60,000 bases of DNA from positions 6,657,001-6,717,000 of the forward strand of contig NC_087073.1 of the NCBI RefSeq assembly GCF_026151205.1, given 5' to 3'. The position numbers and the translations under genes were made by a program. The number at the start of each line of letters is the position of its first letter. Positions within the stretch are counted from its first letter, which is position 1. The DNA is from Bolinopsis microptera (taxonomy: Eukaryota > Ctenophora > Tentaculata > Lobata > Bolinopsidae). The notes beneath the pieces are model-generated. The model worked only from the letters and a program-made list of their open reading frames with translations, was not told the DNA's origin and searched no databases. This document shows positions 4,901 to 36,037 of this stretch, one piece after another.

Positions 4901-7023
4901 CAACAACACAAACAACACAGCAACAAATCGTTATCACACGGCAGTTAAATACAACAATGATTGTAGTATCGAATTCACTTTTATTGTACACAGAATACAT
5001 TATACACATCAGAAACATACACAATACATTGCAATATATATCGGGTATACACTATACAGTATAACGTATTTGATGAAAATAAAGCACAGCAAACAGCAAC
5101 AACAAGAACGTAAGTGAGCCAGCATCTTAAGCGGTGTGTAAAGTACACGGAAGAAAAACACTCCAGGCCTCTGCAACTATACACCACGTACAACTAAACA
5201 CCGCGTACTAATGGCCAGCTTGCGAAGTAAATCTGTCGGAAGGTGGCCGCAGAGGGCGATCATTTTACATCCTTATTAAGTGTTTTGAGTGTATGGGACT
5301 ATGGAATGTGTGGGGTTTCGTTATTCAATTTGTTACATTGTCATTAGCCACTAACCTACTGGTGCCAGGTTTCATCAGTAGTCTGCTAAATAGATCGGGG
5401 CCGGAGCATATAATCATATCGCAACCTGCCAATAAAATAGGGCATTGTGCGCACTTTAAGCTTTTAAGCGTTTGGTATGTGTGCAATGGTTTTGCTTTTC
5501 TCAGTATCTGAGAGATTATATATATATATCGTATAATATAATGAGAATAAATAATCCCTGGGCTTGTCTGTTGGTTAATTTCCACTAAGCATCTGTCTCT
5601 GGTTAATGGTTTCTCGCCAATCTCACTTATCATTTCCGAACACTTGGTCCATGGTTTTTAAAGCTATTCTGTAGACGATAATGTTCTTGTCCTGCAGTTC
5701 TCTTAAAATAAGTAACCGACCGAAGTTCTCTTATTTTTCTCTTGGTCGTTGGTCGTGAACTGTTCAACTGACACAGGTGAGGAGCATTAGCATCGTCTAA
5801 AATACGACAAACAAGTTCCAGCCATTCGCAAAGTTCTTCTGCGGCACTTATCTTTTGTTCAAATTGACTTCAGTACAGTTTCTTGATAATTGCAATAATT
5901 TGACCTCTTTAAAAGTCGTGAAAATAGCGGTAAAGTGATTAAAAATAGATAGATCTGCTCAGATCTTTTTGAATTAAGCATTTATCTCATTTCTGGACAA
6001 AATTATTCCATTTTTAAGCTCTGCGTTTTCGTGTCACTGGCCATTTTCAATTTGCCATTCATGATCTCCCAGCCATCTAGCCGTTAATAAGACTTTTGGC
6101 CGTAGTGATTTTGCATGAAATTCGGCATATATTCTCTAAGATTTGTCACCTTCTTTGGTTCTTAAATCACTGTAGTATTCTCTTTCCCCTTATCCGGCGC
6201 CCACAACAACCCTTTGTCTAACCTTACAATTTTAGCCCAGAAATAAGAAAATATGGCCCACACTGATAAAACAATGCTTTTCATGACACAAAAAGTGGTA
6301 AATTTCGTAAAACATTCGGCTCATGAATGCAAATTCTAATTCCAGCCCCTTTATTTTATAAACGCTGTACGCAGTGATGAAGACTGCGAAGTGAGGGGAG
6401 TTACCCGCCATGTCGCGACCCCCCAGGATTTTAAATTCCCGTTAACAATTTTATTGTTACAGGTATGTTCCAAGCAGCGAAAGCAAACAAGGAGCTATCC
6501 CAGATACTGTTGAACATGAACCCCTCGTTTAACCTGGATATAGGAGAACACAACCTCCACAGATTCCTGGCTCCTAATCGTCACCTCCTCCCTGAAGACG
6601 TAAGTTAATCTTATTTTGGGGTTCATCTCAAACAACATTTATAGCTCTAGTAGACCCTCTATAAATTGAATTAGTTCCAACAACCACTGTCACTCTGATG
6701 ATAAGCTGACACCATGGCTTTGTTAGTTGCTACATCAGCTCATATCTCTCCCTTTACAGGTAGATGACTCAGATTGTTACCCTGAACCTCACACTCCCTC
6801 ACAAGTCAGTACAGAACTACTTGATGACGTCACCAGCCTAGCCCCACTTCCAGCACCTATCAAGAAGGAGGAGTACCCTCTTCTGGGGCTCAAACCTCAG
6901 GCTCCTCCTCCTCTTACTGCTCACGAACTGGTTAGGAGATCTAAGGTTATTGAGGCTGTAGCTCCAAGCTCACTGTGGGTCCCTGCTACCAGTTTGAAGG
7001 GCGGGGAGCTCGTCTCTATTTAA
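1950..7023 (+). CDS. Unrecognised four-exon gene, about 267 aa
   Basis: I do not recognise this protein. Four exons join in phase: 1950-2235 (ends before GTGGGT), 2472-2588 (CCAG before, GTAAGT after), 6463-6599 and 6760-7023 (stop TAA 7021-7023). The start could be the ATG at 1950 or at 2010; the second has the better context. The N-terminal 90 residues are basic and low complexity (KTPSKQGRRQDTRQKQ). The middle is a likely helix (EAEKKSNHEALYKSRLLRTK, then MFQAAKANKELSQILLNMN). The C-terminal 85 residues are rich in Pro, Ser and Asp with APLPAPIKKEE and PQAPPPL. There is no signal peptide or membrane segment, so it is probably nuclear or cytoplasmic. The 3.9-kb second intron contains the LURP-one-like gene on the other strand. 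The exon chain is supported by matching phases; function is unknown. Confidence 0.6.
3386..4409 (-). CDS. LURP-one-related (tubby-like fold) protein
   Basis: Three exons on the minus strand, all in phase 0: 4409-4269, 4092-3811 and 3583-3386. They give 206 residues, the usual length of a LURP-one-related (LOR, PF04525) protein. Family features visible are the early strand GGFVIKDIHGKELFQV, the second copy of that pattern HEILDMEGNKVAEL, and the late pair WIKVKETKIFNAETEEVYAE. It ends with a hydrophobic stretch (TVKPGVDVVFMCLCAVYFNV) matching the central helix of the tubby-like barrel. Family members in animals and plants are poorly characterised, and lipid binding is proposed from the fold. 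Splice sites are GTAGTT, GTAAAG and matching CAG acceptors. The gene lies inside an intron of the unrecognised plus-strand gene. Family assignment is fairly sure, role unknown. Confidence 0.72.
4410..6462. other. Intron 2 remainder, no gene seen
   Basis: This is AT-rich intron sequence of the surrounding plus-strand gene, upstream of the nested LURP-one-like gene. It should contain that gene's promoter. Open frames here are short and lack splice context or recognisable protein sequence. Confidence 0.5.
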
Positions 7024-10700: not shown

Positions 10701-13700
10701 GAATCTCTCAGCAATGTGTGGCTGTCTGCGCGGCGGGCTGTGTATTGTGTATATAGCTGAATTTAAATTTAGATTTATTTGTAAATGTATAATAATATTA
10801 AATATGTATTGATTGTTTTGTGGTAAATAAAATTTTTGTTTAAAAAAAAAAAAAAAAAGATGCTAGGTTGGGATCAAACAGATTTTGCCATCGATTTATC
10901 CCCCTAAATATAATCACTTTCCTTGATTTATCGGATATTTCATTATTTTTGGAGAAGAAGTTGTAACCCCTCACCCACTCTTAATCTACAAATCTCCTCA
11001 GACCAAGAGAGCCTGAAGGTTAACAAGCCACCAGACAGGTGGACCTTCAAGATGAGGAATGACCTGTTGTTCCCGCCTCAGGGACTCATGATTAAAGATG
11101 TAGATAATCCTAATGCTAATCGACAGATAGTTCACAGTAATACTGGGTTAGTAACAGTTCTAATAACATAATTATTGTTGACTGTTGTTAAATTATAAAC
11201 TAAGTTTGCGATCATCTTGGCGACTGAGATTGCTTAGTATCTAAGTATCACGATTTGCTTTGGTGCTACAATCAAAGTACTTACAAACAGATTACACTAT
11301 ATCTGAGGGCAGCAGTATCAGAATGATGCGGGCAGAGATTGAGAAGCTTGGGTTACATATTGTTTGGTCCAAGATGTTTCTAGCAAATTGATGTTGTGCC
11401 GTAAAATGTATTCATATTTCAGGTTACCGAACTCCTTTGTCCAAGAGAGTTTAGCCAAGAAGATGGCTCCAGTTATTGGAAAAGATAAGGTAGGATTTCC
11501 AATTGAGATGCGTACATGATTACAGTCTGTATTCAAATTGAAGACATTATAATTATGTACATTGAAGCATGGTTTTCAGGTCATCCAACTGTAAACTAAC
11601 TGTAAACATAGCTTTGCGTGATTACAATATATATCACAAAATAATGGTCTTGATATCTGCCTTTTTGTGATATTGCTTTATAAAGATACGTTAAACTTCC
11701 ATCCACTGAAACCTGTTTCAGGCATTATCATTACAAAAGATTCATATTAAGCAAGATCATTACAACAAATCCCCCTACAGATAGGCGTGGACGGTAAACC
11801 AATGGACGGGAACGCGACCCCGCGAGTTAAAGGTTACGCGTACTGCGCCACGCCTCAGATAGAGCCAGGGGTGGGTGCCTCGCCCCTGATGACATGGGGA
11901 GAAGTGGAGACCACTCCCCAGAGAATAGAGGGCACCACCCCAGTCAGGCACTCTGGTCCTGCTTTTAAGATACCCCAGGTTTGTGGGAATTTAACAGGTT
12001 TATATAAAAACTTGCTTAATTGTAATCTGCAATGCACATCAAATACTGAAACATACAGACATATAGAAATTAGTCAACAGATGAATTTCACCCATGATAA
12101 AAAAACATATAAGTTACTCAAAAATCAGGTGCATATAGTTGAAACCATAGTAAACTCAAAACAAGAACTCTTACCAAAAAGAACTGTTAATTATGCCGTT
12201 TTATAGTTTATCGCTGGCAGTGACAGCCGTTAAGTAATGAAAAGTGCCCAATTTTGTACACATAAACAAGGCGACATAAAGTTTTTTTTAAACGGCTATA
12301 CCAGGGCCCATAGAAACATGAGCCTCCAGATTATTTTATAATTTATTAAGAAGTGTATGATGGAGTAGAAGTATATTCATATTGTGGAATAGCCTGAGTT
12401 TCGTGTACAAATACGTTTAACAGAACGACACAAAAACATAGGGCCACTAAAAAGTGCGGTTATGTAACCCTTGTAACGCATGCGGAGATCAGGTTTACGA
12501 ACTATGATAATAGTCGGGAACAAGGCCGCTGTTAACAAAGGAAATGTAAACTTGGCTACCATCTCCACAGAATACCTGGGATCATCATAAAGCTCCATGT
12601 CCACCTGGTAGATGTAGAACAGGAAGAAACAGAGAGCGAATGAACCGTTACACACCAGGAACAGAACGGAAATGAGAAACACAGTGAGGTTAACATGGTT
12701 ACCCAGGCTCCTCCGCAGCTTACACCCGCTCCCAAACACCACACTCACGTACACCATCTGGACTACCATGCAGACCAACACAATACCACACGGTACCACG
12801 TACTCGCAACACAGGAGGATGAACGTGAGGGCATCGTACAGCGTACCACTGGAGATGAAGGACAGATCCATGATCCTCATCACAACTCCCCCTCCTATAA
12901 AGATCAGGTTATCGTATGCTCGCTCCTGTCCCACAGTACACACTTTATACCCGTTACCACTGATTGGGTCTCGTTGAAAGTGCTGGTGCCAGAATACCAT
13001 GTCCAGTATTGAGACGAACAGACCGAAGGTTGGGACTAGCACCAGGGCACTCTTCAAGAGGTCCTGACTGACTTGGTAGAAGGGGTTGATAATGTTGGTA
13101 GTTTTGAGGATAGTCAGGACCACGCTGAAGAAGATGGAAGAGATGTAGCTGAAGAGACCGGGAGTGATGTACAGTAGAAATATCCACGACTGAAGGGAGA
13201 AAGTCTCATCTCTCAGGCAGATAGTTGCCACAGTACCCCTCACCAGTTGAGAAACAGCTGTTATCACATCAGCTGCAGCGATAAGAAGGAAGAGAAGGGA
13301 GGAGACTCGTCGCCTGTCCGGGTAGTAGTCGTACAGTATCACGGAGTTTTGGAGTATGATGTAGAGAGCTAGAGTCAGGTCTATGGGGGTTAGGTACTTG
13401 TAGGTGCGGGTTTGGAGGGTAGTGTGGGATGTGTTAGAGTAGAGAGCAGAGGAGACATTGCCATTTATCCACCTTCCTGGCTGAGTGTCGTTAGTAAGTG
13501 ATTATTAATATTAATAGAATATAACAATTGGATTAGTTCATACCGTGCAATAATAGAGTCGTCGTTTGTCATTCTCACGGTAAAATTCTCACGGTATCTT
13601 ATAAAATTCTAATAACGGCTGTTGCAGTGTTGCTCTCAAATTAGAGAACAAAATCTGAAGTGCAATGTGATGTACGTTGGAAATTGAGCGGAACGTGAAG

Positions 13701-24939: not shown

Positions 24940-27900
24940 ATGGGTCTTTTGAAAGGGAGTCTACGAATACACATCATCGAAGCAAAGGTGAGGATGCTAA
25001 GAAAACTTATTCTGCATAGCATTATTATATATATATATTATATATATGTGAAAAACTTGACGATTACAATCTACAACTATCACTTTGACTTAGTAGTACT
25101 TAACATTAATAGCACTTTTCCTGAGTAGCACTTTTCCTTGCGATAGAATATCCTCGTAACATTAAATTCGACTGCAGGGTTTGTTAAACAGAGATAACAC
25201 GGTAGTTCATGAAGATGTATCAGACCCCTATGTTTCTGTTGATGTTGGTGTTACCAGGGTAGCCAAAACGTTCGTCAAGGACAACAATCTCAATCCTCGC
25301 TGGAATGAGGTGAAAAATAATCTAGAAGGCATACATAGATTGTTATTGAAGTTAAACTTGTAGATTGTATTGTCAAAGGCTCAAGAATTAATCCCCCTAC
25401 ATACCCCAAATGAAGAAATTTGATTGAAAATAACTAAAACTAACAGTTAACAAACGACAGGTTTTTAACGTAGACGTGAACAGTAAAGCTCGGTCAGTGA
25501 CCTTCAAGGTGAAGGACCGTGATGTGGTGGGATGTGACATGTTGGGCTGGTTAGCTATTGAAGTGGACGAGCTACTCGAGGAGGAGATTATATCCGGCTG
25601 GTGGGTTTAATCGCAAACTTTATTTTTATCAGGCCGGATTATAAAGTAGTGTCACATAGTGAGTTAGAACTTAAAAGCTTGGTGCTTGGTGCTTGTCCAA
25701 CTGGAATGAAGACATGCATTTCATTCCTACCCGATCCATTTTTATTAGGACCGTGTTGTGTTGATATGACATGTTGATATATCAACTGTGGTACGAAACA
25801 GGGAGTTGCTAGGTGTTACGTTGGGAGCTATAAATATACATAATTTACATGCCTTTCTGTGTGACTTCAATCTTATTCAAGGTGTATCTCGGCTCATGGT
25901 TATCGTAGGATGATAATTCTTTTTTCAACCGGTCATAAAAAGTCTCCTCTCCATTGGTTATAGGCTCGTTAGTATCGTAAATTGTTAATTTATTCTTAAT
26001 TAGTAATTTAGTCGGCCCGCACGCTCATTTTACCTGTATTTCTATATGCGCGGATCAGAGCAACTCACATAATTGACGTCACAGGTTCAAATTTTTTTGG
26101 CTGGATATCTCGGCGCGCGAATGAAATACAACTTTGCGGATTTCACTAAAGTGGTTTATACGATTAATGTAATAAAAGGATTTGCACGAGAAAAAAACTT
26201 TTTATAAGGTCCCCTCATCCTTTAATGCTGGTATTTATGTTTGCCTTGTCATGAACATATGCTGTAATTGTTTTAAATATTTAAATGTTTACTCGACACT
26301 CCTCCTCAGGTTTCCACTGATAAGTCCTCAGGGGAGACAGGATTGTGGCAAGCTGAGGGTAGAGATCAGTTTCAAGACCAAAAACAAGAACGTACAAAAC
26401 AACATGTTTCCTCTCAGAACAACCACAAGGTAAATTTGACATTACTTTCTGAATTAAAGAAACTTTGTGAATTGAAGGAAAAATTAAAATAAGATCTTAT
26501 TGATCAATGACACTTTGGAGACACTGACAGTTGATATATCATGACCAGCTTCACACTTTTATCATGATATCTATAATATCTTATTTCCAGGTTGAGACTA
26601 TATCAGGATGCGTGCTGTGCCAAGTTTCCCCAACATGACACCCACGTTAGGAGGAACTCTACGATACAAGTCAAGGCTGGAGAAAGCAGCTGGATAGATT
26701 TGTACCGTGATCTCAAACAAGCTCAAGATCTTATCTACATCAGCGGATATACACTCAATCCTGGTTAGTAATTGTGAGCTGGAATGGTAGAAAACATAAC
26801 TTTTATCACTATAATATATTATCTTTCATAATCGACCAATTTTATGAAGGACATCATTTAACGATACAATACAAGATAAAAGATGATATTCTATGGGGTC
26901 AAGGCCCTAGGGCTCTTAGTTTAAATAATAGTTAATATCTTAGTATTAGTAAAAAACTTGTTCTCAGATTTGAAGTTGTCGAGATACACACCGTGTGAGA
27001 CGCTAGGACAGATACTTCTAGAACGTGCAGAGAAGGGGTGCAAGTCCTTATCCAAGTCCAGGTTAATCATTTAGGGTATCAAATTTTAAAATCATGATTA
27101 GCAAATAATACCATCAAATACAGAATATCATGTTATAGACTAGAGCCATAGTTAACAATTAGCCAGCTAGATCCCACAGGAGCTGTGTATGGGGTCCCCT
27201 TGTGAGTACATGTGCCACCTGCACGATCCTGAACGACACTTGAAGCTGAGATTCGCTGCTAGTTCCGTACAGGTTTCAGTGAGACCGCCCACACGAGATG
27301 ACCACACCTCCTCCTTCGTTTTGGTGGACACGTCTCTGGAGAACGTTAACGTGCCGCAGAGACGACTTGTTGCTTACTTCGGGGGCTTGGACCTGGTTAG
27401 TTATTACGTTATTCGAGAGTCGAGATCAAGAGCATTCATCCTCACAAAAACATTAAATACCACATCGATGGGTGTATAAGTCAAAACCATGAAATAAGTG
27501 TAAAAGATGAGCTGGCCAAGTCTAAAATGATGTCCATGACAGGTAACAGGAAGATGGGACACGCCAGGTCACTCTCTCTTCGACACACAACGCACACTGC
27601 ACCGGGGTGACTTCTACAACCCCTGTCTGAACCTCCGGGCCCGGGGTCAGTCTTACTGTCAGATTTGTGGTCCCAAGGACACTCCTGACCAGGAAATTGA
27701 GACTACAACTTGTGATTCCTCAGGTGCTAGGTTACCTTGGCATGATACAACCAGCAGATTTGAGGTGAGTTCGTGGACAGATTTAGCTGTTGATTTTATC
27801 AATCACCTCACGTTCATGCAGCGAAGAACAAGGGAATATTTCGGTAGGAAACTGATAACAGACTCCTTACTGGTTTTACTACTTTTTGTGAAAGAAGTCC

Positions 27901-29008
27901 TATCTTCTTAAGATACCCACCTTTACAGGGCCGCCTAGCACACGATCTCATGGTACATTTCGAGGAGGAGTGGTTAAAACACGGACCTAAAACGAACTTT
28001 GCGGAAATAGACGATGAAGACTACGATCTGGATAACCCCCCTCCCGGAAACAAGACAGACGAGTGGGAATGCAGTCTCCTGACGAGCATTGCTAACCCTA
28101 GCAACCCCACATCGTCTCTAAAGAGACGGTCAACCAGACGTGCTAGAAGTAGGACGAAAAGTGTTATGACTACTAATGAGGATGTCATCCAACAATGTTT
28201 AATTAATCATATTAAGAAAGCGAAGAAATTCGTTTACGTGGAATGTCCGATTTTGTTCAAAACGAAAGAACCGGACGGTTTTACTCTGAACCCGGTCCTA
28301 AACGAGATGATAACACGGATTATGATATCTATTGAAAACAGAACAGAGTTCACGGTGTTCCTCGTGATCCCTGAACTTTACATCCACACATCCAACATGA
28401 AGTTAGCTTCAGATCCCGACACAGATCGTGTAAACGTTTACCACAGGGATTGTATTGCTAAAATGTATAACATGATAGGAAACTGTATTGCTCGACACAA
28501 GGGATCAGCAGATAAACACCCAACAGACTATGTCCAGGTTTACACTCTCCGAAACAACGGTTCCAGTACCCCCTACAAGCTTAAAGAACACGATCATAAC
28601 ATTCAGAGTCAGATGATATTCGTACATTCTCAGGTTGTTATCATAGACGACGAGCACTTGATAATGGGATCTCCAACCAGCCACACTCAGCTCGCAAACA
28701 AGGACTACGAAGTAGCTCTGGCTCTGTGCCAGCCCCATCACCCTAGTGTTATGAACGGACCGTTACCCACAGGGGATGTGGCCAGGTTTAGGATGTCCCT
28801 GTGGTTAGAACACATGGGGGACACCCAGACCTCTTGGACAGACCCGAGTAGCAGGGAGTGCAGGGAGAGACTGAGGTTTATAGCTCAGGTTAACAGAGCT
28901 AACCATGATAAGGGTGTGGTTTGCGAGTCTCATCTGCTCGAGTTTTGCAAATCTGTTCACAAGAGTGGGAGAACGGAGTTTTACCACTTTAAGACACATA
29001 AACACTAG
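24940..29008 (+). CDS. Plant-type C2 phospholipase D, likely pseudoenzyme
   Basis: Nine exons: 24940-24987, 25178-25309, 25461-25600, 26310-26429, 26591-26763, 26968-27061, about 27167/27180-27395, 27543-27764 and 27929-29008, giving about 740 residues. An N-terminal C2 domain keeps likely calcium ligands (SDPYV, NLNPRWNE, KDRDVVGCDMLG). The PLD body follows plant PLD order: RLRLYQDACC, LIYISGYTLNP, RRLVAYFGGLDL, GRWDTPGHSLFDT, DFYNP, LPWHDTTSRFEG. Family members hydrolyse phosphatidylcholine using two HxKxxxxD motifs. Here the first reads HTSSFVLVD, where HHQK-type His and Lys are lost, and the second reads HSQVVIID, with Lys replaced by Gln. Catalysis is therefore unlikely; calcium-dependent membrane binding could remain. 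Exons 6 and 7 do not join in frame as read. The gene converges on the kringle gene. Confidence 0.85.
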
Positions 29009-29657
29009 TGCTATAACACTGGATTCTTAAACTTTACTTTCGGGTAGAGATCATAAGATCGCGATTTTTTTACCAACGTGAGCATGAAAATTACTTTTCC
29101 TTTTCAACCTCTTTTACTATTTCATAGCAAAAGCTTCTCGACACAAGAAGTGACACGTTTCTAAACAATATGGAGAGAAACACTTTATTCCCTCGCATCC
29201 TGTTTGATAACTTAGTATTCATTCATACTGACTTTCGTGGGAAAACTTTGTGCTATTTTTACAATGGACCTTAATGGAGTCAACCAAATATTTAATCGAT
29301 ATTGTGACTAAAATTCAGGTAAATCAGATTAATAATGGTTAAATTTATTGCACAAAATTGGCAAACCTTGCTGTGTGTATCGAATCCTATTTTTAACAAA
29401 TTTTTGTCCGAAAGGAGGATTTTGGGATGAAAGAATTTAGGGCTCACACGAATAAATGAGCTTAACACGTCAGCCTTTCTAATTTTATAGTTATGGTAAG
29501 ATGACATATAAACTGAGTTTTATGAGCAAGTTAAACTGTATTGAGTTAAGAATAACATATACCAACTATTTTTAACCAATTTGTCTCAATAACAAGTCTG
29601 TATAAACTGTATAAAGGTTGAAAAGATAAAAGCACCCGCGGCCCCGTGCTGGAAGTC
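29009..29657. other. Convergent intergenic region, no gene seen
   Basis: AT-rich spacer between two converging genes. It must hold both 3' UTRs, and no further coding sequence is recognised. Confidence 0.4.
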
Positions 29658-32600
29658 CTAAAAGTGGAAGACAGGAAGGTCGGTATCCTCACAATGAAGT
29701 ATCTCTGAACAGTAAACGTATCGTACCAGGATGCTGGTGGTGTAGCACCAAGGCTGTCCTGAGTTCCTGGGGTCCGGGTTCCGACACTTGTTGTGCTGAC
29801 CAATACCGTACACTGCCGTGTTGCTAGGAGATGGGTGATACATGTGGGGATGTGGGAAATCACGTGACCAGTTCTGACACGTGTAGCTTTCTCCACTTTG
29901 AGTTCCGGTGGTTTGGTTTCCACGGTAACCAACGCCATCTTGTGCATAACACGCCACGTTCCACACACACTTAGGTACCCCGCACACTGATGGTTGTTGT
30001 GTGCCGTTAACATTAACAAGACAGGTAGGACCCTCACTCGCCTTCTCCTCATTCCTGCAGGGAGTCAGACACTTCCTGCCCTCTCTATCCACCTTCTGGT
30101 ACCCTCTGAAGTACTGACCGTGTTCCTCCTCGTCAATGTAGCAGAACAAGCCTGTCATTACGGGGGAAATAAGGTACACTGCCTTCCTCAACTCCAAGTG
30201 TCCTCCGTTAACCACCACTATCTCCTCTCCAGTGCCACCTACATCCACTACCCAGTCCCCAGACACAGCCACTAGGTAGGATATCTCCCCTAGTATGTTG
30301 TCGATGGAGCCCCCCTCGTAGAACTCTGCCACTGCCATCTCAGAGCTGTTCATGCCAAGAAGTATAGGTCCGATACAATCTGTAGGGGAGGTAGATCCTG
30401 TTCTGTAGGTGGTGTGAGTTTTATTGCTGGGGCAAGAGGTACAGCTAGTTTGTCCCTTTCCGTCAGCAAAAGATCCCTGTTGACAGATATCACACTCAAC
30501 AGCTCCCTCTGAAGCTGCTGAGTAGCCAGGGGAGCAAGGGGTGCACTGTGCAGCTGCAGTAGCGTTGTTAGTAGACGTACCAGGAAAGCAGGGCTCACAG
30601 ATCAAACCTCCCGGTGAGCTGGTTATAGTTCCTGCTACACAATCCGTGCAGGTTTTAGCCCCTCTGACAATACCGTCAGTACTGGTCCCAGCCGGACACA
30701 TTTCACAGGAACCTGCACCAGGGTTGGAGGAGACACTGCCAGGTCCACACAGGTTGCAGATGGCAGCACCCTGGTCTGAATAGCTCCCTGCACTGCAGTT
30801 AGAACAGGAGATTGTAGCGTTGGTGTCCGTGAAGGTGCCAGCTGAGCAGGGGCTACAGTCTTTACTCCCGGTCTTATCAGCAAAGTAGCCGGCAGGGCAA
30901 GCAGTACAGTTCCCAGTCCCGGGGCTAGTAGCGTTGTAACCAAGAGAGCAGGAAGAGCAGGACTCTGAACCACCCTTTCCGTTTGTAGAGGCTCCTGCTT
31001 CACACAGAACACACTTGGTTTGTCCTGTTGAGTTGCTAAAACTGCCAGGAACACACTTAGTGCAGCTTGTAGCCTTCATCTCTTCACTAGCAGATCCTTC
31101 ATCACATAGTTTACAGTCAGCAGCCCCGGCAGTGTCACTGAAGGACCCTGGCGTGCAGTCCGAGCAGATCACACTTCCTGACTGACTGGAAGTACCCGCC
31201 ACACACTGCTCACAATCAGTAGCTCCTCGCACCAACCCTCCGGTACTGGTACCAGCAGGACATGCTCCGCAGAACCCAGCTCCCTTCTTGTCTGTGTAGG
31301 TACCAGGACCGCACAAGTCGCACATTGTAGCATTTATTTCTGAAAAAGACCCTGCAGAACATTCACTGCACTCTGTTGTGCCATTCTTGTCTGAAAACGA
31401 GCCAGCGGCGCAACCAGTACATTCTGTTGTGCCATTCTTGTCAGAAAATGAGCCAGGGGCACAATCAGTACAGCTTGTAGCTGCTCTGATGCTGGAATAC
31501 TGTCCAGGACTACACGGAGAACAAACAGCAGAGCCCTCTTTCTCAGCAAAAGTTCCAGGCTCACAAAGATTACAAATTGTGGCATTGGCCTCAGAATATG
31601 ACCCTGCCGAGCAGGGGGAGCAAGTCTCGCAAGCGTGGTGTTCAGCAAAGGTTCCAGCCTGGCACACAGTGCAAGAGGTAGAGTTGGATTCAGCGGAGGA
31701 GGAGCCACGAGGACAGGGACTACAATTTGCTGTTCCGTTCCCAGGAGCAAAGAAGCCCGGACTGCACACTGTACACTCTGTGGCTGCTCTGAAATCTAAA
31801 GTCGAGCTACCTGGGGAGCAGAGGGTGCAGGCTGCAGATCCGTTAACTGGAGAATAGGAACCAGGCTCACACAGGTTACACATTTTAGATTTAGGTTCTG
31901 AAAATGAGCCCGCGTCACAAAGTATACATGATGTCGTTCCGTTGTTGTCAGAAAAAGAGCCAGCAGCACAATCAATGCAACCCTCAGCTCCATGAATGTT
32001 TGAATATTGTCCAGGACTGCACAAATCACAGGTTTCAGCTGATGCATCTTTAGCAAAAGATCCTGGTTCACAGAGATTACAGATTGTAGAGTTAGAATCA
32101 GCTGCGAAGGAGCCGGGTTCGCAAGCAGGGCAATCTGCTGTTCCGTTCCCAGGAGCATAGAAGCCAGGACTGCACACAGTGCATTCAGTGGCTGCTCTTA
32201 AACCAGCTGTTGAGCTACCTGGGGAGCAGAGGGTGCAGGCTGAGGACCCATTACTTGAAGCATAGGAACCAGGCTCACACAGGTTACACATTTCAGAGTT
32301 AGAGTCTGAGTAAGAGCCTGCGTCACAGAGTGAACATGATGTTGTTCCATTCTTGTCAGAAAAAGAGCCAGCAGCACAATCAGTGCAACTCTCAGCTCCA
32401 TGAATGTTGGAATATTGTCCAGGTTTGCACAAATCACAGGTTTCAGCTGATGCATCTTTAGCAAAAGATCCTGGTTCACAGAGATTACAGATTGTAGAGT
32501 TAGAATCAGCTGCGAAGGAGCCGGGTTCGCAAGCAGGGCAATCTGCTGTTCCGTTCCCAGGAGCATAGAAGCCAGGACTGCACACTGTACACTCTGTGGC

Positions 32601-33498
32601 TGCTCTTAAACCTGCTGTTGAGCTACCTGGGGAGCAAAGGGTACAGGCTGAGGAGTTAATTGGAGAATAGGATCCAGGCTCACACAGATCACACATTGTA
32701 GAGTTATAGTTTGAGAAAGAGCCAGCTTCACAGAGTGAACATGATGTCGTGCCATTATTGTCAGAAAATGAGCCGGCCGAACACACTTCACAAAGAGTTT
32801 GTCCTTCCTTATCATTATAAGAACCAGGGATGCAGAGATTGCAGCTTGTTGCATTTGTCTTGTTACTGAGAGGAGTTCGAGTTAGTTTGATCACAACAGG
32901 ATTTCAACAAACTCTGAAGACATGATTTGTTTTGTAATGTTAACATTTGTCATAGATTGATGTCGCTACTAGGCACTGAATTCATGACACAAATTAATCA
33001 TTAAGCTGAAAAAATAAGCTTAAGCTATAAGAATATTAGATAATGAGGGAGACGAGGAAAATCCTTTAAAATCGCGTTAAAATTAACCTGTAGGATCCAG
33101 CGGGGCACAGAACACAAATAGTTTTGTTGTTAACATAACTGCCAGGTTTGCAGTCTACATCTAGCTCATCTGAAATATAAATTTCGTTGGGGGCCAAAAC
33201 CTTATGTGAAGTGTGAAAGATTCCTCTATTTTGTCGTTCATTCAAATTCAATTGGTCGACGCTGACATTTTAGCAGTAGTACCAACAATTAATTATAGCA
33301 GAAAATCATACTCACTGGGCTGCAAAGATTCATCTACGACATGTTGGACAAACTGGAGCACATCTCCAGAACATTCTCCACCAGTTCTGCCCAGGTGTTG
33401 TTTCCCTCGTCAACCTCTGTCCCGGATGTAACGCCAAGGGAAACAGCAAATGTCAGCGGGGACGCTGCCAGCAACAGCAACACCACAGTTACTTGCAT
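29658..33498 (-). CDS. Secreted GCC2/GCC3 cysteine-rich repeat protein with kringle
   Basis: Three exons: 33498-33354 (donor uncertain), 33169-33088 and 32865-29658, about 1144 residues. Exon 1 encodes a signal peptide (MQVTVVLLLLAASPLTFA). Most of the protein is some 50 half-repeats of the pattern C-x2-C-x2-G-(S/T/F)(F/Y)(S/A), as in ephrin-receptor-like GCC2/GCC3 modules, with many NGT, NAT and NST glycosylation sites. A 408-bp (136-residue) block is repeated about three times (spacing seen at 31731, 32140 and 32549). After a cysteine-poor linker comes a kringle: CYAQDGVGYRGN, T-x-SG-x-x-YTCQNW, CRNPDPRNSGQPWCYT, YVYCSEILHC. A degenerate kringle-like segment (YFRGYQKVDREGRKC) precedes it. 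No membrane anchor follows, so it is probably an extracellular matrix or secreted adhesion protein. A stronger donor (GTGAGT, exon end 33316) would need a one-base frame change in exon 1. Confidence 0.85.
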
Positions 33499-35002
33499 CT
33501 ATTGTTCGGAAATTATATATTAAGTGACAGCTCAAGCCCAGCTACAATATAAATAATAAACTAAAACATAAAAGCGCTCAAAAAGCTTAGTCATTAGTGC
33601 TGATTTTAAAATGCACAGAATGAATAAATCAAAACACAGGAGAAAAGGGACTAAAAAATCAAGAACTTTCCATTTCTCTCTGAAAATGAAGATAACGTTA
33701 TTGCTATCAAATATCTTTTCTGCTTCTGGCGTTCCTTTCAGAATGCAGACAAGCTTTTTAATCAAATTTTTGCTTCCTGTTTTTATCACGAAACATGATA
33801 CACTTCACCCTGGTGACTGTCAGAATTACTCCTTTTTCTCAATGCTTGCAGATAAGATAACTACTTATCAAATAAAAATGTATCTTCTTCTCATACAATT
33901 TGTGTATATCAAGTATCCAAAGTTGCTACATATTTCTAAGAATTGAGGAAAACTATTTACTGTAACTTCATTTACATAATGCAAAGTAACACAAGGCTGC
34001 ATTTGCTAAGAAACAACCAATATTTTATGTAAGATGTTCGGAAACGTTGCCCATTTTTTTTCTATATCATTACCATGATCGTGATCGATCACTATTAAAG
34101 TCGATACATGTGTGCTTATAGTTATAATATTAATACGGGGCTAATTTTGCCTATGAGAGCTGGAAATTTGAAATTTAAACCTTACAAGTTACACCTGTTA
34201 AGTACTTGTACCCATAATTTAACCAACAGCTGTTTACTATGACTTGAAATTTTCCCACTACCCAGGAGTTTTCAGATTATGGGGCGCTCTCTTATTCTTA
34301 ATTGTTTTTGATTGTTCGGTACAGAAACGTTTGTTCGCTGGCTCTCCTGAACTTGCTCACATTCAACTTGTTGAGTTTTTTCTTTGTCAAACACGTGAGT
34401 TCACTATAAATATATTTTTACGACCATTTAGGTCCATTTACGATAATTTACAACCATTTACAACCATCTGTCCGAAATTTTCTCTTAGAATTTTCTCTTA
34501 GAAAAAACAATTATAAGCGCGCGGTTGGTCGGTATTATATCTGTCGTTAGTCTTAAAGGGCATTCATAAACATCTGTTCAGCTCAGGACGAACTTTTCAA
34601 AAATCGATTTATCATTGACCACGATGGAGGTAACCGTTTACCGTAAAGCATGTTAAAACAATGCAATCGTTAGGTAGAGCTTTTTCTGTTCGTGAATTAT
34701 CTGATGAAATATATATGAATTTTTCTATTTGCTCATTCAAATTCCAAGTTAGTCTTTTACAGTTTAAAGGTTTTTATAATTAACTTTATAGTTGGTGAAC
34801 TATTTTTCAATTCGACGGGAACGGGGAAGGGAAGCTCAAGCATACCAGTTAAACTTAATCTTTGAAACCGTGATATCGACAATTGCGTTGCATTAATTTT
34901 CGGTATTCACCTACGGTAACTATTTTATTATCATTTATTGGCTTGAAATTAATTTAAAGCTTTTTAATTTTTATTAATTTATAATTTTCAGAAAATTGCG
35001 TC
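33499..35002. other. Divergent intergenic region, no gene seen
   Basis: About 1.5 kb between the kringle gene and a GPCR gene transcribed away from each other. It should contain both promoters. Open frames are short and unremarkable. TTTTCAG directly before the GPCR start suggests a spliced leader exon in this interval. Confidence 0.4.
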
Positions 35003-36037
35003 ATGACTAACCAGAGCACAGCGTTTTCTAATACTGACGTTCAGAGTACTTTTTTGTATTCGCCTACGGATGAGTTTACCTTACTTTCAACCCACCTGGA
35101 GCCCTACCTCATCACCAGCGTACCAAGTATCCTACTCAGCATCATGACCATCACCCTCAACAGCTTCATTATCAACTACTATCGGAAAAGTGAACTCTCT
35201 CTAGTCCCCTTTCTCTACACAATGATAGCATCAGCTGATATCCTGACTGCAGTCGGGGTTATACATCAGTCTGTAGCTTTTCCATTGTTCATTAAAGAAG
35301 TCATCGGTACAAACTCCATAAATATGCACACAGTTATTTTCTACACGGTCATTCAAATAAGTTACAGATCGTCTGTATTCTACAACTTAGTGCTGGCTGT
35401 TTCAAGGACTGTCATGATCTTAAGACCCTTTCTCCAGATTAAGATAGGTGCTGTAAAAGTTGCATGTATCTTGCACATTGTGCCGTGGCTAATCCTAACT
35501 GCTTCAGATATACATCAGTTTTATTTTGTTGAAAACGCTTTTGTTATTAGAGTGTATATGGATTTGAATTTGCAAATGGGCGCCAGTATATATTTAAATA
35601 TGGGCGCCAGAATAATAGGATTTAGGTCGGCAATAGGTTTGCTTTTTCTATCTCTACCTCAGATGATAGCCTTTCTAATACCGGTCTTCATAATCTGTAT
35701 CACGTGTATTATCCAACTGGTATCACTGCACAGATCAAGTGAGTTTCCAGCCAGCAACAATCAACGTCACGTGACCATTACAATAGTCCTTATGTCAATC
35801 CTATTTGTCGTGTGTAACTCTGCCCTCGCTGGATTAGTATTATATAGCATTATCACCGATAATTATGAAGTCTTATATAACTATAGCTACTACTTCTTAC
35901 CGGTGCTCGGAACTTTGCTGCCAATACTGAACGCAGCACTCAACCCTGTCATCATCATTACGAGAAGTAACGGATTGAGAGTAAAGTTCGTGGAGACAAT
36001 GCGGCAAATAAAGAGCTTGGTGAGATGGCAAAGGTAA
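35003..36037 (+). CDS. Rhodopsin-like GPCR, single coding exon
   Basis: 344 residues with seven hydrophobic segments and an N-terminus bearing NQS. Class A landmarks are present: N1.50 in TLNSFIIN, D2.50 in IASADILTA, W4.50 in IVPWLILTA, and NP in TM7 (ILNAALNPVIIITR). The DRY motif is replaced by VSRTVMILRPF, with only Arg kept; TM6 has LFVVCNSA instead of CWxP, and NPxxY ends in Ile rather than Tyr. TM6 and TM7 closely resemble the minus-strand GPCR at 12377-13480, so both belong to one divergent family. There is a small in-frame duplication (MGASIYLNMGA) before TM5. The start ATG lies just after TTTTCAG, so a 5' UTR intron is likely. Ligand unknown. Confidence 0.85.
   Translation: MTNQSTAFSNTDVQSTFLYSPTDEFTLLSTHLEPYLITSVPSILLSIMTITLNSFIINYYRKSELSLVPFLYTMIASADILTAVGVIHQSVAFPLFIKEVIGTNSINMHTVIFYTVIQISYRSSVFYNLVLAVSRTVMILRPFLQIKIGAVKVACILHIVPWLILTASDIHQFYFVENAFVIRVYMDLNLQMGASIYLNMGARIIGFRSAIGLLFLSLPQMIAFLIPVFIICITCIIQLVSLHRSSEFPASNNQRHVTITIVLMSILFVVCNSALAGLVLYSIITDNYEVLYNYSYYFLPVLGTLLPILNAALNPVIIITRSNGLRVKFVETMRQIKSLVRWQR

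Follow-up and report, generated by a model that had tools for sequence, protein, structure and literature searches.

Has a plant-type phospholipase D (PLD) whose catalytic motifs have been lost been kept by a genome, in all likelihood that of a ctenophore, for some other use, or is it simply a duplicate in the course of disappearing? The question is raised by a gene found within a window of 60,000 nucleotides (contig C2, positions 6657001-6717000; 39.2% GC), i.e., the whole stretch of DNA analysed here, belonging to an assembly of 264,652,675 bases in 232 contigs. Innexin has 18 matches in this assembly, at about 13 places distributed over six contigs, a result in keeping with a ctenophore or a bilaterian and less so with a sponge or placozoan; Bolinopsis microptera is the probable species. 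The gene occupies positions 24940-29008 of the forward strand of the window and encodes a C2 domain followed by a plant-type PLD core. Our reading, which we hold to be somewhat better than an even bet, is that it represents a retained and fast-evolving pseudo-phospholipase, that is, a divergent C2-PLD paralogue predicted from its sequence to have lost phospholipase activity.

Structure of the gene

The coding region begins with an ATG at 24940, ends with a TAG at 29006-29008 and is divided into nine exons by eight introns, all of which (8/8) have GT-AG borders; three of the borders (3′ for exons 3 and 7, 5′ for exon 8) were placed by hand and agree with a later check. The C2 domain begins in exon 1 (24940-24987; MGLLKGSLRIHIIEAK), continues in exon 2 (25178-25309), which contributes the acidic residues D22 and D32 of loop 1 (NRDN...VSDPYV), and in exon 3 (25461-25600), where the acidic residues D79, D81 and D86 of loop 3 lie within KVKDRDVVGCDMLG (25506-25547), and terminates in exon 4 (26310-26429), which also encodes a linker. 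The PLD core starts in exon 5 (26591-26763; LYQDA ... LIYISGYTLNP) and extends through exon 6 (26968-27061), exon 7 (27180-27395), which carries the degenerate first HKD motif, and exon 8 (27543-27764), with the conserved VTGRWDTPGHSLF and LPWHDTTSRFE, into exon 9 (27929-29008), a single exon of 1,080 nt that encodes the second half of the core and the C-terminus. Since exon 9 corresponds to at least eight exons in a paralogue on contig C8, the 3′ end of the window gene is poor in introns. The gene is single-copy: the DNA of exon 7 has one match in the genome, and the reading frame of exon 9 has one strong and two weak matches. Exon 9 also encodes a basic stretch, SLKRRSTRRARSRTKS (28115-28162, forward strand), that could be a membrane or localization signal; the stretch found at about the same place in the C8 paralogue, RARKLKTERSEK, is less basic.

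Descent of the C2 domain and of the PLD core

The initial annotation assigned the gene to the C2-PLDs rather than to the PX-PH PLDs, an attribution that is upheld by both parts of the protein. Residues 6-110 match the Pfam C2 domain PF00168 with 77.7 bits (cut-off 22), and exons 7-9, compared with the PDB, score 146.2 bits with PLD-alpha-1 (6kz8; we take 6kz8/6kz9 to be the Arabidopsis protein) vs. 59.8 and 48.3 bits with human PLD1 and PLD2, respectively, so that the core is closer to C2-PLDs than to PX-PH PLDs. The domain order is likewise that of a C2-PLD, and neither a PX nor a PH domain was matched by the window protein in Pfam at E ≤ 1; DUF1669 gave no match at the same threshold either, and membership among the FAM83 pseudo-PLDs is not indicated. 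The Pfam profiles of the PLD core detect no PLDc or PLD_C domain above cut-off in exons 7-9 (PLDc_2 reaches 13.6 bits vs. the 27 required); the C8 paralogue scores 63.8 bits with PLD_C, 46.2 with PLDc and 40.6 with PLDc_2. A structural model of exon 9 alone, made with AlphaFold2 without an alignment, was set aside (mean pLDDT 43.1, pTM 0.36).

The best solved relative of the C2 domain is extended synaptotagmin-2 (55.6 bits), PLD-alpha-1 ranking fourth (45.6 bits). D22, D32, D79, D81 and D86 align with acidic loop residues of the C2A domain of extended synaptotagmin-2, whereas two further acidic positions of loop 3 are replaced by V83 and C85. The five aligned residues are candidate calcium ligands, and both intact ligands and a calcium-binding C2 domain are plausible on this alignment.

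Catalytic motifs

Numbering the residues as in the PDB chain of PLD-alpha-1, and aligning six cores, the substitutions at the active site are H332T and K334S in the first HKD (HTSSFVLVD, 27303-27329), in which D339 is kept, and K663Q in the second (HSQVVIIDD, 28625-28651), in which H661 and D668 are kept. Of the four catalytic His and Lys, one His and both Lys have been replaced, and three of the six motif residues are kept; D669 and E691 are also preserved. The GSANINQRSM signature reads GSPTSHTQL. The replacement of both His and Lys in the first HKD, as first read from the sequence, is confirmed by the alignment, whereas the degeneracy attributed to the second holds for its Lys and for the disrupted signature but does not extend to its His and Asp. 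The two intact HxKxxxxD motifs of a C2-PLD are not found; as both HKDs are degenerate, we regard the gene as a homologue by descent and do not file it as a C2-PLD enzyme. A scan for HxKxxxxD/E in the three forward frames of 24940-29300, which an intron-split motif would escape, yielded a single match, HDKGVVCE at 28904; it was rejected as an HKD, sitting in the C-terminal tail and not being a PLD-type motif.

Could the residues that are left still support catalysis? It is very improbable that the remaining His and Asp of the second HKD, possibly together with a second protein, give some phosphodiester chemistry, a reading to which the preservation of D339, H661, D668, D669 and E691 lends something, and against which stand the loss of both Lys and of one His, the disrupted GSANIN signature and the description, in the available text of PMC6008594, of both HKDs as critical in the human PLDs that have two.

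The PLD family in this genome

The C8 protein, used as query, gave at least 25 exon-level matches at E ≤ 1, a lower bound, distributed over five places. The C8 paralogue itself (C8:12.428-12.458 Mb) has both HKDs intact (HHQKSIICD and, across an intron, HSK/MLIADD, the slash here and below marking an exon junction) as well as GSANINQRSM, and scores 426 bits with PLD-alpha-1 and 113 with PLD1; the queries used detected no C2 exons for this gene as far as C8:12483000. Intact HKDs (HHQKT/VICD and HSK/AMVVDD, the junctions being placed by eye), GSANINQRSM and a C2 domain are also present in a paralogue at C3:0.277-0.304 Mb, which, apart from the window gene, gave the only match at E ≤ 0.001 (C3:0.304 Mb) when the genome was searched with the N-terminal part of the window protein. 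A third paralogue (C3:15.005-15.033 Mb) has kept its C2 domain and has lost both HKDs in a manner different from that of the window gene (RHNQRFVVLD and ICGSVLVVDD). The last gene (C3:19.313-19.326 Mb) is represented by pieces of the core together with a weak match resembling a C2 domain; its second HKD is not recognizable and the exon of the first was not found with the patterns used. Both HKDs are therefore intact in two of the five genes, degenerate in two, the window gene included, and unrecognizable in one, so that three genes (in the window, at C3:15.0 Mb and at C3:19.3 Mb) are without a recognizable working active site and yet keep C2-like and core pieces.

None of these five genes was detected when the genome was searched with PF00614, whose matches fell at two C8 places only, probably because introns cut their HKDs; one of these C8 matches is PLD3/4-like by eye. 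An apparent stop in the first HKD of the gene at C3:0.28 Mb (HH-stop-K) was also rejected, the exon ending with ...HHQKT and being followed by a 34-bp tandem repeat. This repeat (3.9 copies, C3 ~298.2-298.4 kb, positions 6218-6355 of locus L013) duplicates the end of the exon and its splice donor, so that several consecutive ...SHHQKT/gt sites are created.

Genomic surroundings

Upstream of the window gene, four large inverted-repeat pairs are found between 21094 and 24450: 21775-22334/23891-24450 (560 nt, 96%), 21094-21630/22485-23021 (537 nt, 96%), 23371-23526/23739-23894 (156 nt, 99%) and 21626-21775/22339-22488 (150 nt, 97%). They may be fold-back elements nested in one another, and some 490 bases separate the last arm from the start codon. 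At 29661-32903 of the reverse strand, an open frame of 1,081 residues that converges on the PLD gene carries 17 ephrin-receptor-like repeats as well as TNFR-like matches. A homocysteine S-methyltransferase (PF02574, 157.2 bits) is encoded at 2-1039 of the forward strand, and two further open frames, one of 374 residues at 12380-13501 (reverse) and one of 350 at 34985-36034 (forward), resemble seven-helix receptors by eye and have no Pfam match at E ≤ 0.01. Elsewhere in the genome, pairs of equally scoring matches 120-370 kb apart, two for innexin and one for a PLD motif (C1:4254005/4378223, C7:6754013/6935049 and C8:2181635/2548263), are possibly unmerged haplotypes or recent duplications.

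Distribution of the lost residues

With PLD-alpha-1, human PLD1, the C8 paralogue and the C3 0.28 Mb paralogue as reference, 76 columns are invariant and, gaps being counted as losses, the window gene keeps 10 of the 22 that fall in the two motif segments vs. 36 of the 54 elsewhere (p = 0.12). The contrast is weaker when the reference consists of PLD-alpha-1 and the C8 and C3 0.28 Mb paralogues (10/25 vs. 57/112, p = 0.38) or of PLD-alpha-1, PLD1 and the C8 paralogue (11/23 vs. 40/71, p = 0.63). Since none of these differences is significant, a loss limited to the motifs is not shown for the window gene; the losses are not significantly concentrated there, a point that weighs against a simple pseudoenzyme account. 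The C3 15.0 Mb gene keeps 9/22 vs. 36/54 with the first reference set (p = 0.044); with the other two, p = 0.26 and 0.15.

In a tree of six cores (PLD-alpha-1, PLD1, the C8, C3 0.28 Mb and C3 15.0 Mb paralogues and the window gene, the C3 19.3 Mb gene being left out) the branch of the window gene is the longest, with 3.2 changes per column, a length that possibly reflects relaxed constraint across the whole core. No inner branch of this tree is starred, and whether the degenerate genes share a single loss is not resolvable from it.

The reading frame at exons 6 and 7

Exons 1-6 sum to 707 nt and exit in phase 2, whereas exon 7 is open in phase 0 only. The conflict resides in exon 6, whose first part, TLGQILLERAEKG, is read in one frame and whose last part, VQVLIQVQ, in another, each being similar to the paralogues (TLGEILIEKAEEGCVVFIM, LGEILKQKASEGVQVLV). 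An assembly slip, an unusual splice and a real lesion are all candidate causes.

With regard to the conflict taken by itself, we lean slightly toward a slip in a short run of G, or another choice of splice sites, in an otherwise normal gene; the loss of the HKDs would be unaffected, and such an origin would fit the pseudoenzyme reading. In fact, an open frame can be recovered, over the ranges examined, with 198 combinations of GT or GC donors and AG acceptors, six of them requiring a single altered site; on the other hand, these sites are poor by eye or skip segments that can be aligned with the paralogues, and none is convincing on inspection. As to a slip, the available description of the published B. 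microptera assembly states that it was built with wtdbg from PacBio reads, an origin compatible with a slip at a short homopolymer, and that pilon and Illumina reads were then used to polish it, a step that lowers the likelihood of a slip; both points would apply here if the genome analysed is that assembly.

Decay or retention

The more serious challenge is that the gene is a pseudogene or in early decay, catalysis having been lost under relaxed constraint, and that the frameshift of this allele reduces the protein to the C2 domain and the beginning of the PLD core. This reading, which we consider rather unlikely though well short of negligible, owes its weight to the presence of intact paralogues in the same genome and to the phase conflict between exons 6 and 7; it is favored also by the loss of 18 of the 54 non-motif invariants, by the longest branch of the six-core tree and, provided that the published B. 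microptera assembly is the one analysed here, by the Illumina polishing, which makes a slip less likely. It is opposed by the GT-AG borders of all eight introns and by the state of the frame. Indeed, no stop occurs in 740 codons, while the three catalytic substitutions require at least six nucleotide changes (two for H332T, three for K334S and one for K663Q). Had the gene drifted neutrally since the loss of activity, the probability of finding no stop together with at least six changes in nine sites would not exceed 1.8e-7 at any of the divergences tried, a value that presumes neutral, independent changes and pertains to exons that had been picked as open frames. The absence of stops despite these substitutions speaks against simple neutral decay and suggests that the frame has been protected during a large part of the period following the catalytic change; for what purpose, the calculation gives no indication. 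The GC content by codon position (0.49-0.51, 0.36-0.40 and 0.52-0.54, vs. 0.34 in the introns) also counts for a retained gene.

The retained pseudo-phospholipase that we prefer draws, in addition, on the C2 domain (77.7 bits) with its acidic loops, on the C2-PLD-like core, on the 36 of 54 non-motif invariants that are kept and on the sister genes, of which two have intact HKDs and one more has both degenerate. The frame disagreement, the non-significant motif contrast, the long branch and the lack of a PLD match above the Pfam cut-off are counted against it. So is the fact that the two Mnemiopsis leidyi PLD genes, ML00555a and ML49231a, are not among the six genes with summed embryonic expression >100 tpm in the available text of PMC6005172, for which reason the expression of this PLD family, the window gene included, is not established.

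A possible mode of action and its significance

Such a protein would be devoid of phospholipase activity. By analogy, its C2 domain would dock the protein on anionic membranes upon a rise in calcium, while the dead PLD core could act as a lipid- or partner-binding module, for example competing with or tethering active paralogues and perhaps regulating those with intact HKDs. Extended to the family, this leads to the tentative and rather doubtful proposition that ctenophores have made a horizontally acquired plant-type PLD family into both enzymes and calcium-responsive, non-catalytic lipid-binding or regulatory proteins. If this were true, a family reported as horizontally acquired (PMC6005172, available text) would have split into HKD-intact members and members that are dead but retained, and an enzyme that had been acquired would have become a module without enzymatic function, to be compared with the active sister genes that accompany it in the genome; should the window gene merely be decaying, it would be one more duplicate in the course of being lost. 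Two peptide patterns, derived from two sequences, were matched 119 times in a scan of prokaryote genomes, none of the matches being confirmed as a relative; the scan is too narrow for inference of a donor.

Comparison with known systems

Pseudo-PLDs as such are known, whereas a class of dead C2-PLDs was not met in the literature when searched by titles and openings of abstracts, subscription papers being mostly outside its scope. Human PLD5 is described as being without HKDs, and the FAM83 proteins, vertebrate-only and having one pseudo-motif, bind CK1 isoforms via DUF1669 (PMC6008594, available text). Like the window gene, PLD5 and FAM83 (DUF1669) are PLD-family proteins without working HKDs as far as that text goes; unlike it, they belong to another PLD lineage. 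To our knowledge, these pseudo-PLDs have no C2 domain.

A plant-type PLD in a ctenophore is not new, since those of Mnemiopsis leidyi have already been reported. The available text of Hernandez and Ryan 2018 (PMC6005172) lists nine horizontal transfers, each recovered also from the transcriptome of one or more further ctenophores, among which are ML00555a, a PLD alpha 1-like gene with C2 and PLD domains and 14 introns, and ML49231a, a PLD gamma 1-like gene with 6 introns, both passing SOWH and AU tests. As portrayed there, they resemble the window gene in being plant-type PLDs with spliceosomal introns in a ctenophore host and differ from it in being described as enzymes by homology.

The nearest solved relative of the core remains Arabidopsis PLD-alpha-1 (PDB 6kz8/6kz9), the best PDB match of exons 7-9, with which the window gene shares the succession of C2 domain and PLD core and the motif order GG.DL..GR.DTP.HSLF, PWHD....EG, and from which it is set apart by an identity of 30% across the aligned core and by the two HKDs that the plant protein has kept intact.
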